A DNA stretch of 64,000 nt, from contig NZ_JASCQG010000002.1 of the NCBI RefSeq assembly GCF_030005555.1, positions 124,001 to 188,000 on the forward strand. Direction: 5' to 3'. The position numbers and the translations under genes were made by a program. The notes beneath the pieces are model-generated. The model did not search any database and was not told the DNA's origin. It saw only the letters and a list, made by a program, of their open reading frames with translations. Each line of letters opens with the position of its first letter. The first letter of the stretch is position 1. Shown piece after piece: positions 2,783-15,389 of this stretch. Source of the DNA: Empedobacter sedimenti (GTDB taxonomy: Bacteria > Bacteroidota > Bacteroidia > Flavobacteriales > Weeksellaceae).

Positions 2783-2867
2783 GATAGAATTATAATTGTA
2801 AATTGTAAAAAGTCTAATGTAAAATGTACTTAATACTTGTTACATTTTACACTAATACAACAAAAAA
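2783..2867 (+). repeat. Inverted repeat in the purF-purM gap
   Basis: TGTAAAATGTA (2818-2828) and TACATTTTACA (2841-2851) form a perfect 11-bp stem around a 12-nt loop. No T-run follows, so it does not look like an intrinsic terminator. It may process or stabilise the operon mRNA, or be a decayed short repeat. Confidence 0.5.
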
Positions 2868-12169: not shown

Positions 12170-13681
12170 ATGCAAAAACAAGCGCTAATCAGTGTTTCGG
12201 ACAAGTCGAACTTGTTAGAATTTGCAAAATTCTTGGTTGAACAAGATTACAAAATCTTATCAACTGGAGGAACTTACAAACATTTACAAGACAATGGAAT
12301 CGAAGTTACAGAAGTAAAAGATGTAACTGGTTTTCCTGAAATCTTAGATGGTCGCGTAAAATCTTTACATCCTGCAATTCATGGTGGTATCATGGCGCGT
12401 CGTTCGGACGAAAACCATATGGCAACGATTGCAGAACACGGAATTAACCCAATCGATATCGTTATTGTAAATCTTTATCCATTTTTCGAAAAGATGAATA
12501 CAGGTCTTTCTGAAGCAGAAATGATTGAATTTATTGATATTGGAGGACCATCAATGTTACGTTCTTCTGCAAAGAATTTTTATGATGTAACGGTTGTAAC
12601 GGATGTGAATGATTATGAAGTGGTGATGAATGAAATTCGTGAGAATGGTTCAACTTCTATCGAAACACGTAAATTATGTGCTGGTAAAGTGTTCAACTTA
12701 ACTTCTGCTTACGATGCCGCGATTTCTACTTACATTTTAGGAGAAGATTTTCCTCAATTTTTAGAGTCTTCTTACGAGAAAGTGATGGATTTACGTTACG
12801 GAGAAAATCCACATCAAAAAGCGGCTTATTACGTTGATAAAACGAAAAATGGCGCAATGAAAGATTTCGAATATTTGCAAGGAAAAGAACTTTCTTTCAA
12901 TAATATTCGTGATATGGATTTGGCTTATAAAGTAGTTTCAGAATTCGAAGAAACAACGTGTTGTGCTGTGAAACATTCAACGCCTTGTGGAGTGGCAATC
13001 GGAGATTCAACATTAATTGCTTATGAAAAAGCATACGAATGTGACCCAATGTCAATTTTTGGTGGAATTATCGCTTTCAATAGAGAAGTTGATGGAAAAA
13101 CAGCGGTTGAATTAAATAAAATTTTCTTAGAAATTGTCATCGCGCCTTCATTTACAGAAGAAGCGTTAGAAATTTTCAAACAAAAGAAAAACTTACGTAT
13201 CATCAAAGTGAAAAATCCTGTTTCGGATAAAGTAACTTATGTAAAAGTTGATGGTGGATTAATTGTTCAGTCTACAGATAATCAGTTTTCAACAGATCTT
13301 AAAGTTGTAACTGAAGCTCAACCAACAGATCGTCAAATGACAGATTTAGTTTTTGCTCAAAAAATTGTTAAATGGGTAAAATCTAACGCGATTGTTGTAG
13401 CGACGAATGGTCAAGCTTACGGAATCGGAGGTGGCCAAACAAACCGTATTTGGGCTGCTCAACAAGCGATTGCACGTGCAAAAGAAAAAGTGGAAGAAGA
13501 TTTAGTTTTAGCTTCAGATGCATTTTTCCCTTTCCGTGATGTAGCAGATTTTGCTGCTGAAAATGGAATTAAAGCAATTATTCAACCAGGTGGATCAATT
13601 AAAGATCAAGAATCTATTGATGCGTGTAACGAACGCGAAATTCCGATGGTTTTCACAGGAATGAGACATTTTATGCACTAA
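12170..13681 (+). CDS. purH: Bifunctional AICAR formyltransferase / IMP cyclohydrolase
   Basis: It carries out the last two steps to IMP. The N-terminal MGS-like domain holds [14 protein letters not shown] and STGGTYKHL, with [14 protein letters not shown] (about 64-77) of the cyclohydrolase. The C-terminal AICARFT domain has [24 protein letters not shown] with the catalytic Lys-His, and the end block [15 protein letters not shown]. At 503 residues it is the usual size. The leader has CAAACAATAA at 12141-12150, like other purine genes here. 57 bp of repeat-like sequence follow before the four-helix-bundle gene. Confidence 0.97.
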
Positions 13682-13683
13682 AA

Positions 13684-13710
13684 TTCGATATGCGATATTC
13701 GTTTTGCGAT
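13684..13710. repeat. Left copy of an inverted repeat flanking the four-helix-bundle gene
   Basis: TGCGATATTCGTTTTGCGAT (13691-13710), read on the opposite strand, matches 14126-14145 at 16 of 20 positions. It lies between the purH stop and the small gene. Confidence 0.55.
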
Positions 13711-13738
13711 GTTGGAATTTAAGATTAACTTAATGTAA

Positions 13739-14110
13739 ATGAGAAGTTATAGAAATTTAGACATATGGCAAAAAAGTTTGGAAATTTTAAGACTGGTTTA
13801 TAATCTTTCTAATAAATTTCCAGAATCAGAAAAGTATGGATTAACTGTTCAAATAAAAAGAGCAGTTGTTTCAATTCTTTCAAATATCGCAGAAGGTTCT
13901 GGAAGAAATTCAAATCAGCAAATGATTAATTTTCTATCTATTTCAAAAGGTTCTGCTTTTGAAGTTGAAGCTCAATTAATAATAGCTTTTGAGTTGAATT
14001 ATATAACAGAATCAGAATTAAATGAAGCTTTAGAATTAATTGATCATTATTGTAGAATGAATCAAAATTTTCAAAACTATTTAACAAAGAAAAACAATGG
14101 AACAAAATAA
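13739..14110 (+). CDS. Four-helix-bundle protein (S23 / 23S rRNA intervening-sequence protein family)
   Basis: This 123-residue, all-helical protein has the TIGR02436-type pattern: YRNLDIWQKSLEILRLVY, then FPESEKYGLTVQIKRAVVSI, LSNIAEGSGRNS, and FLSISKGSAFEVEAQLIIA. The family was first found in insertions of 23S rRNA and includes Avd-like accessory proteins of retroelements; free-standing members have no proven role. It sits between purH and purD, flanked by related inverted repeats, and overlaps the purD start by 14 nt. No reverse transcriptase or rRNA is near. Purine function is unlikely; an inserted gene is more plausible. Confidence 0.88.
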   Translation: MRSYRNLDIWQKSLEILRLVYNLSNKFPESEKYGLTVQIKRAVVSILSNIAEGSGRNSNQQMINFLSISKGSAFEVEAQLIIAFELNYITESELNEALELIDHYCRMNQNFQNYLTKKNNGTK

Positions 14111-15389
14111 TAGCGCAAACCGCGAATCGCAAACCGCGAATCGCATCTTAGTAATCGGTTCAGGTGGTCGCGAACACGCAATCGGATGGAAATTTGCTGA
14201 GGACTTCAAACAAAAAGGTCAAGAAGCAGAATTATTCTTTATTCCAGGAAATGCAGGAACAGCGCAAATTGGAACTAATGTTTCGGTTTCTTCGATTGAA
14301 GAAATGAAAAATTACGCGAAAGAAAATCAAATCGATTTAACTTTTGTTGGACCAGAAGCTGAGTTATCAGAAGGTATCGTTGATATTTTTCAGAAAGAGA
14401 ATTTAAACGTTTTCGGACCTCATAAAGCTGCTGCGCAATTGGAAGCTTCTAAAGCTTTTGCGAAGGATTTTATGGATAAATACGGTGTGAAAACAGCAAA
14501 ATATAAGAATTTTCAAGGACCAATGTTGGCGATTGATTATTTGAAAACACAAGAGTATCCAATTGTAGTGAAAGCCTCTGGTTTAGCGGCTGGAAAAGGA
14601 GTGATTATCTGCCAAGATTTCGAAGAAGCGAAGCAAGCTGTTTTGGATATCATGGAAGATAAAACCTTTGGAGATGCAGGAAACGAAGTGGTTATCGAAG
14701 AATATTTAGAAGGTTTTGAAGCTTCTATTTTGTCTTTCTTTAACGGGAAAAAAATCGTTCCATTTGTTTCGGCAAAAGATCACAAGAAAATTGGAGAAGG
14801 AGAAACTGGTTTAAATACTGGTGGAATGGGCGTTATCGCTCCAAATCCATTGTTTACAGACGAGCATTTCAAAATGTTCGAAGAAGAGATTATGGAGCCA
14901 ACAAAATGTGGTTTAATCAAGGAAGGATTAGAATTTGCAGGTGTTATTTTCTTTGGATTAATGATTACGACAAAAGGAGTTTATTTGTTGGAATATAACC
15001 TAAGAATGGGCGATCCAGAAACGCAAACAACTTTACCTTTGTTAGAAAATGATTTGGCTGAGGTTGTAAATAAAGCAATCAAAGGAGAAGATTTTGATTT
15101 GACTTTCAAAAATCAACATGCGTGTTGTGTGGTTATGGTTTCGGGAGGATATCCAGGAAATTACGACAAAGGTTTTGAGATTCGTGGTTTAGAAAATGTA
15201 ACTTGTCCTAATTTTATTGCAGGTGCAAAATTATCAGGAGAACAAATTTTGACTTCTGGTGGACGTGTAATCAACATAGTTGGATTAGGAAATACATTAG
15301 AAGAAGCGCGTGAAACAGCTTACGAAAACATCAAGAAAGTACATTTTGATTACGAATATTATCGAAATGATATTGGAGTAATTCAATAA
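14097..15389 (+). CDS. purD: Phosphoribosylamine-glycine ligase (GAR synthetase)
   Basis: ATP-grasp enzyme that couples glycine to phosphoribosylamine. The N-terminal ILVIGSGGREHAIGWKF, the ATP-grasp strands YPIVVKASGLAAGKGV and EEYLEGFEASILSF, and the metal site NLRMGDPETQTTLPLL are all present. The 430-residue length is normal apart from a 16-residue lead (MEQNNSANRESQTANR) that homologues lack. That lead is encoded by a tandem 14-bp repeat and overlaps the upstream gene by 14 nt. No other ATG exists before the core, so the native start appears to have been replaced. A bidirectional terminator follows. Confidence 0.96.
   Translation: MEQNNSANRESQTANRILVIGSGGREHAIGWKFAEDFKQKGQEAELFFIPGNAGTAQIGTNVSVSSIEEMKNYAKENQIDLTFVGPEAELSEGIVDIFQKENLNVFGPHKAAAQLEASKAFAKDFMDKYGVKTAKYKNFQGPMLAIDYLKTQEYPIVVKASGLAAGKGVIICQDFEEAKQAVLDIMEDKTFGDAGNEVVIEEYLEGFEASILSFFNGKKIVPFVSAKDHKKIGEGETGLNTGGMGVIAPNPLFTDEHFKMFEEEIMEPTKCGLIKEGLEFAGVIFFGLMITTKGVYLLEYNLRMGDPETQTTLPLLENDLAEVVNKAIKGEDFDLTFKNQHACCVVMVSGGYPGNYDKGFEIRGLENVTCPNFIAGAKLSGEQILTSGGRVINIVGLGNTLEEARETAYENIKKVHFDYEYYRNDIGVIQ
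14114..14145. repeat. Tandem 14-bp repeat inside the purD N-terminus; right flank of the inserted gene
   Basis: CGCAAACCGCGAAT occurs at 14114-14127 and again at 14128-14141, followed by CGCA. Because 14 is not a multiple of three, the two copies are read in different frames of PurD. Confidence 0.8.

Follow-up and report, generated by a model that had tools for sequence, protein, structure and literature searches.

Free-standing genes of the S23 family lie, in bacteria of several phyla, between two arrays of a short word (usually 7 nt) in inverted orientation, and comparison of genomes showed that these cassettes evidently come, go and replace one another as whole units at preferred positions between cistrons, the flanking genes remaining unchanged. 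As judged from the same comparisons, the word follows the S23 protein, not the site, across genomes and phyla. We regard the element lying between purH and purD as a member of this widespread class of operon cassettes, in which S23 would recognise its own word and the spread would be homing-like, a reading that in our judgement has somewhat better than even chances; both the recognition of the word and the mechanism of movement are what we infer from the patterns described below.

The S23 gene between purH and purD

The window, that is the whole stretch of 64,000 nt analysed here, carries a four-helix-bundle S23/23S_rRNA_IVP gene between purH and purD within an imperfect inverted repeat (Table 1). 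The encoded protein belongs to the family according to both Pfam 23S_rRNA_IVP (PF05635; 125.3 bits, cut-off 33.8) and TIGR02436 (113.7 bits, cut-off 24), and its nearest solved structures are 2gsc and 2rld, with five chains per entry. An S23 protein 98% identical to it is present in Empedobacter tilapiae MRS2, and dN/dS was 0.05 relative to the orthologue in Empedobacter genome G008. The cassette starts directly after the purH stop codon. A sequence-only reading of this DNA had described a free S23 gene at this place with an inverted repeat of 16 in 20 positions and a 14-nt overlap with purD, and both features were confirmed: 13691-13710 matches the reverse complement of 14126-14145 at 16 of 20 positions (81% when lengthened to 21 nt, 13690-13710 / 14126-14146), and the open reading frames place the end of S23 at 14110 and the start of purD at 14097. 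The tandem 14-bp repeat that had been said to have turned coding does lie inside the purD frame, its copies at 14114-14127 and 14128-14141 being identical.

The right-arm 17-mer, made up of two related heptads (a shift of 7 matches with 2 mismatches), has two occurrences in the window where 0.04 would be expected, and chance does not account for the tandem repeat. Taken alone, the inverted repeat is marginal and not convincing by itself, since among 1223 virtual genes of equal length placed in the window 50 attained its score in the 150-nt flanks (11.0); the repeat gains its significance because the whole S23 class shows inverted arms. At a stricter array threshold (0.8) the window contained zero arrays, and the arms of the element have no further copies in the rest of its genome.

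Table 1. Features of the purH-purD element and of the arm-only purF-purM gap (window coordinates)
Feature	Position	Strand	Basis or remark
S23-less inverted heptad arms, purF-purM gap, aatgtaaaatgtac ... gttacattttacact	2783..2867	+	arrays at 2793, 2826
purH, upstream neighbour	12170..13681	+	ORF; TIGR00355 616 bits, cut-off 528
Left arm, degenerate heptads gatatgcgatattcgttttgcgatg, inverted relative to right arm	13682..13711	+	lag-7 array 13681-13708 (at least 0.7)
S23/23S_rRNA_IVP gene, 123 aa	13739..14110	+	ORF and family models
PurD N-terminal extension MEQNNSANRESQTAN, S23 tail plus right arm	14097..14141	+	no other in-frame start
purD, downstream neighbour	14097..15389	+	TIGR00877 474.6 bits, cut-off 288
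Right arm, 14-mer CGCAAACCGCGAAT twice, two heptads each; coding in PurD	14111..14146	+	

The PurD frame opens at 14085, and when ATG, GTG and TTG are considered the sole usable start before the conserved RILVIGSGG is 14097, so that the N-terminal extension is very probably translated, there being no alternative in-frame start ahead of that motif. The extension had been put at 16 residues; relative to PurD of Empedobacter G009, a near relative, the window protein is about 13 residues longer (15 codons before RILVIG versus 2 before KILVIG). Nor is the extension tied to the window S23 gene, as had been supposed. PurD extensions of heptad-like codons occur in 7 of 14 Empedobacter genomes, three of which, by reading of the site comparison, have no S23 gene there, and in G003 the extension stands beside a different S23 cassette, the coding right arm being of the first type and the cassette of the second. 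As the three S23-less genomes keep the extension, arms apparently can outlast the S23 gene. At this site the right arm would have overrun the purD start and then been retained as a coding extension. At the S23-less purD start of Empedobacter G002 (L041), a triple direct heptad (aaaactc) is coding in the PurD N-terminus and is accompanied by a left remnant of the gagttat type.

Five of 14 Empedobacter genomes have an S23 gene at purH-purD: G000, G008 and G001 share one subfamily (the G001 copy with a premature TAG), and G003 and G004 carry a divergent one. Between G000 and G003 the flanking genes are 97% identical, as are the last 63 nt of purH (97% alike), and the cassettes differ. The other 9 genomes have an S23-less gap, which supplies the empty sites in relatives that had been suggested as a check and excludes the case in which all relatives carry the gene without repeats. 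Together with the two subfamilies, this limited occurrence supports the view that the S23 gene is an addition to the operon, as far as genome comparison can tell.

Inverted heptad arms around S23 genes

Free-standing S23 genes above the family cut-off were found in 29 of the 40 genomes searched, and repeat-flanked S23 genes, a further search proposed by the sequence-only reading, turned up at many operon sites, other genera included. An inverted-repeat score of at least 12 was reached by 32 of 63 Empedobacter S23 genes versus 4.5% of mismatched pairs, by 48 of 62 S23 genes of other genera versus 18 of 876 virtual-gene controls, and by 44 of 59 loci of a wider, multi-phylum set versus 8 of 1350 virtual genes from the same loci. 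About a quarter of the S23 loci outside Empedobacter, and half of those within it, fall short of this threshold. Each gene's own flanks were also more similar in inverted orientation than flanks of different genes, with scores of 12.0 versus 8.5 in Empedobacter, 17.5 versus 8.4 in other genera and 16.2 versus 8.1 in the wider set.

The 63 Empedobacter genes derive from 64 matches, one gene being split by a frameshift. Outside Empedobacter there were 70 matches, of which 64 were taken and 62 had enough flank; the six omitted were two matches under the cut-off, both parts of a split gene and a further two. For the wider set, 45 of 61 named loci entered, 44 remained after L126 was dropped by a filter (32 of these 44 reached a score of 12), and 15 loci from other genera completed the 59, so that this set and the 62-gene set have 15 genes in common. 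Its record titles name Acidobacteria, Deltaproteobacteria, Betaproteobacteria, Nitrospirales, Anaerolineae, Caldilineales, Oscillospiraceae and CPR lineages.

The periodicity of the arms is pronounced. Match at lag 7 was 0.38-0.39 in S23 flanks versus about 0.255-0.26 farther out, with further peaks at lags 14 and 21 and a minor one at 8, and array density was 2.9-4.6 per kb beside S23 genes versus 0.07 per kb over 400 kb of control sequence, where a lax threshold yielded 27 solo arrays. Inverted periodic pairs numbered only 10 in 400 kb of one genome, and these were AT-rich. In the wider set the left arms and the reverse-complemented right arms, analysed independently, both give a degenerate consensus, (A)GTTcAA (information 3.36 versus a permuted maximum of 2.54, and 3.35 versus 2.73, respectively); in Empedobacter alone it is barely above the null.

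S23 genes mostly lie in the same sense as both neighbours (61 of 63 in Empedobacter, 56 of 64 in other genera and 31 of 44 in other lineages), counts left unchanged for the hisF-site gene of G000, whose downstream frame is doubtful and whose orientation is possibly an artefact. Between close relatives the protein is, to judge from substitution patterns, under purifying selection (dN/dS 0.02-0.19 in the eight closest pairs; median 0.36 across all 92 same-site pairs, distant and nearly saturated ones included), a pattern compatible with either a host function or a selfish one. As to the neighbouring genes, curated models confirm purH, purD, purF, purM and HisB, the argD- and fadA-like assignments being at family level only; those that we take to be argC, sufC, hisF, rluD, wecB, pglC, purC and purN are named from their sequences.

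Exchange at operon sites and the relation of word to protein

The clearest exchanges were found at argC-argD. Genomes G010 and G013 differ there by a single base at the end of argC (~330 nt compared) and by another at the start of argD (330 nt), and they hold different cassettes with different arms, the divergence starting directly after the argC stop codon. Conversely, the cassettes of G013 and G001 are 99.2% identical between flanks of 82 and 89% identity, so that the same element occupies the same site in diverged genomes without transfer of the flanks, the situation expected of homing-type elements. Among 22 same-site pairs with alike backgrounds, which share genomes and are not independent, 15 hold different cassettes; an automatic flag had given 16, one of which was set aside as a frameshifted copy of the same cassette. 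The mobility suggested by the sequence-only reading is upheld in that cassettes have been swapped between species with boundaries at the repeats, as at argC-argD, but nothing points to recent free transposition, as none of 170 same-genome S23 pairs exceeded 73% identity and within-genome copies of recent origin were not seen among them.

Gain and loss are visible as well, since clean, arm-only and full-cassette states coexist at one site in the argD and hisB comparisons. At argD a clean gap of 17-30 nt is found in G005, G006 and G007, and G008 has both arms without a gene; at hisB, G002, G003 and G006 have 2-nt gaps, and the upstream gap of G000 (L201) holds a 142-nt S23-less inverted heptad array, gacgatttacgatt / aatcgtaaatcgt. 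The purF-purM gap, which belongs to the same operon region as purH-purD, is arm-only in the window and contains an S23 gene in Empedobacter G001, G002 and G007. No conserved set of S23 sites exists across genomes.

Some further repeats and copies were observed at these and other gaps. The G000 hisB-gap array lies a few kb from the hisF-site S23 gene, which has a similar word, and the S23 gene at the argD site of the same genome (L066, contig C8) is a decaying copy that a frameshift has broken in two. In the 84-nt hisB upstream gap of G009 (L205) there is a different inverted repeat, gtcatttcgaatgaaacg ... atgacat, with no heptads, which looks like another short intergenic repeat family. Within the window, heptad-like arrays at 276, 448 and 479 (region 250-525), upstream of a purC-like gene, are seemingly mutually inverted, with no S23 between them.

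S23 lineages cluster by site, both within the genus (14 label changes versus a shuffled mean of 44.3) and across genera (26 versus 66.1); in the gap before a fadA-like thiolase gene, for example, S23 genes are found in five genera and mostly group together. This fidelity of S23 lineages to their sites has the look of exchange between corresponding sites, not of insertion at random.

The word, on the other hand, goes with the protein. In 30 disjoint pairs from different sites and genomes, with S23 identity of 0.50-0.90, word similarity was 0.612 versus a null of 0.512 ± 0.013 obtained by permuting positions with composition kept (largest of 500 permutations, 0.547), and in 35 pairs with S23 identity below 0.30 it was 0.503 versus 0.483. 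At the same site with S23 identity below 0.5 the words were unrelated (0.478, baseline 0.491). One S23 subfamily has words like AGTTCAA or AGTCCAA in records of Acidobacteria, Deltaproteobacteria, Nitrospirales, Anaerolineae and Bacteroidetes. Since unconstrained DNA is expected to be randomised at such protein distances, word and S23 protein are probably under joint constraint. This coupling, which is correlative, is the best evidence that S23 may read its arms.

Competing explanations and relation to known systems

According to the reading that we favour, the S23 protein, which probably forms a pentamer as its solved relatives do, would recognise its own word at both cassette ends, in DNA or in the transcript, and this recognition may help the cassette to enter or persist at the cognate gap of another genome, leading to a homing-like spread. 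Homing elements are characterised by site fidelity, horizontal transfer into the same site and presence or absence among close relatives. Unlike them, the window cassette has no nuclease gene, and domain models detected neither recombinase, nuclease nor reverse transcriptase in it; an activity that drives insertion may conceivably act in trans. The protein also resembles the accessory protein Avd of diversity-generating retroelements (DGR), a related family, with scores of 22.9 bits for bAvd and 26.3 bits for DivGenRetAVD that stay below the curated cut-offs (40 and 80), so that it is not an Avd by these models.

A serious rival is that S23 is a resident host regulator which binds heptad operators and tunes the operon, the swaps being gene conversion, by transformation or conjugation, via the conserved flanking ends. 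Cassettes could be swapped by ordinary homologous recombination between such ends, which do lie at the boundaries, the first 32 nt of argD being nearly invariant. The clustering of S23 lineages by site within the genus and across genera, which would also be expected from vertical descent, and the purifying selection on S23 agree with a regulator, and the coupling of word and protein would suit operator recognition equally. A regulator is harder to reconcile with the absence of the gene from many close relatives at each site (9 of 14 at purD, 5 of 14 at argD), with the 15 of 22 pairs on the same background that differ in cassette and not in flanks, with the coexistence of clean, arm-only and full states, and with a set of S23 sites that is not conserved across genomes; on balance we consider it rather unlikely.

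The closest known elements are the intervening sequences (IVSs) of 23S rRNA with an S23 ORF, which are excised by RNase III without ligation. The IVS of Coxiella burnetii, in the passages of the source that describe it, has an S23 ORF within terminal inverted repeats that form a 28-bp stem cleaved by RNase III, and the S23 protein is apparently not made (PMC4990558). The operon cassettes share with such IVSs, as far as those passages go, the protein family, the position of the ORF in mid-sequence, the terminal inverted repeats, the sense orientation in a transcribed unit, the patchy distribution and a suspected horizontal spread (PMC4990558). They differ in lying in gaps of protein-coding operons and not in rRNA (in the window, purH-purD), in having arms that are arrays of 7-nt words differing from element to element, with no RNA-stem signal found, and, relative to the Coxiella S23 as described there, in an S23 protein conserved by selection (PMC4990558).

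One might accordingly imagine an mRNA counterpart of the IVS, whose arms would pair in the transcript, whose stem RNase III would cut and which would spread through RNA. The same family within terminal inverted repeats as in the Coxiella IVS (PMC4990558, in the part describing it), the sense orientation of S23 genes in transcripts and the RNA z-score of the window element (-3.15) speak for it. Against this, mismatches between arms showed no G.U excess over A.C (48:42; Empedobacter 5:16), and the arms were unpaired in both the MFE and the centroid of the predicted fold of 13682-14150; selection for an RNA stem is thus unsupported by mismatch counts and by folding. Although arm families change together on both sides, matched arms within one arm family were no more complementary than arms of different genomes, so exact pairing is not the conserved feature, and with no pairing gain within families we do not claim compensatory base-pair change. 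The window element, moreover, lies outside any rRNA gene, and Rfam gave no match in 13400-14400, nor at six named S23 loci (five CPR, one Shewanella). We find this explanation improbable.

Still less probable is a miniature inverted-repeat element mobilised in trans by a conventional transposase. The terminal inverted repeats and the arm-only copies at argD (G008), hisB (G000) and purF-purM (window) are what such an element would leave, but the near-identical copies within one genome that mark MITEs and ISs are wanting: the arm word is not repeated, each cassette has arms of its own that lack multiple genomic copies, same-genome S23 pairs stay at or below 73% identity in all 170 comparisons, and the word changes with the protein. 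We give hardly any credence to coincidence, i.e. replication-slippage repeats in AT-rich gaps unrelated to S23, for which the marginal inverted repeat of the window (50 of 1223) and the low density of solo arrays elsewhere (27 in 400 kb at the lax threshold) could be cited, but which is refuted for the class by the matched versus control inverted-repeat scores (8 of 1350 and 18 of 876 in controls). The array density beside S23 relative to control DNA (2.9-4.6 versus 0.07 per kb) and the coupling of word and protein also speak against it.

Heptamer arrays as such have been described for the word TAACTGA in Beggiatoaceae, Cyanobacteria and some Bacteroidetes (PMC4679880). Like the arms, these are intergenic tandem 7-nt repeats near start codons; they differ in consisting of one fixed word in direct orientation, and no S23 gene is mentioned (PMC4679880). 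A survey of CPR rRNA insertions calls the S23 domain functionally uncharacterised (PMC11270868). In open-licence PubMed Central papers we found nothing linking S23 genes to heptad arrays or to operon exchange, and such a link may be in print elsewhere. The S23 protein family and rRNA IVSs with an S23 ORF are known; S23 operon cassettes with inverted heptad arrays are apparently undescribed.

Taken further, and held only tentatively, the favoured reading would make S23 lineages sequence readers of a private 7-nt word and the cassettes a nuclease-free homing-type element in operon gaps across phyla, of which the rRNA IVS may be a specialised offshoot. The fixed architecture, the exchange of cassettes and the co-varying word unite an unexplained gene family and heptad repeats in one testable system, and S23 cassettes bear on the long-standing question of the origin of rRNA intervening sequences.
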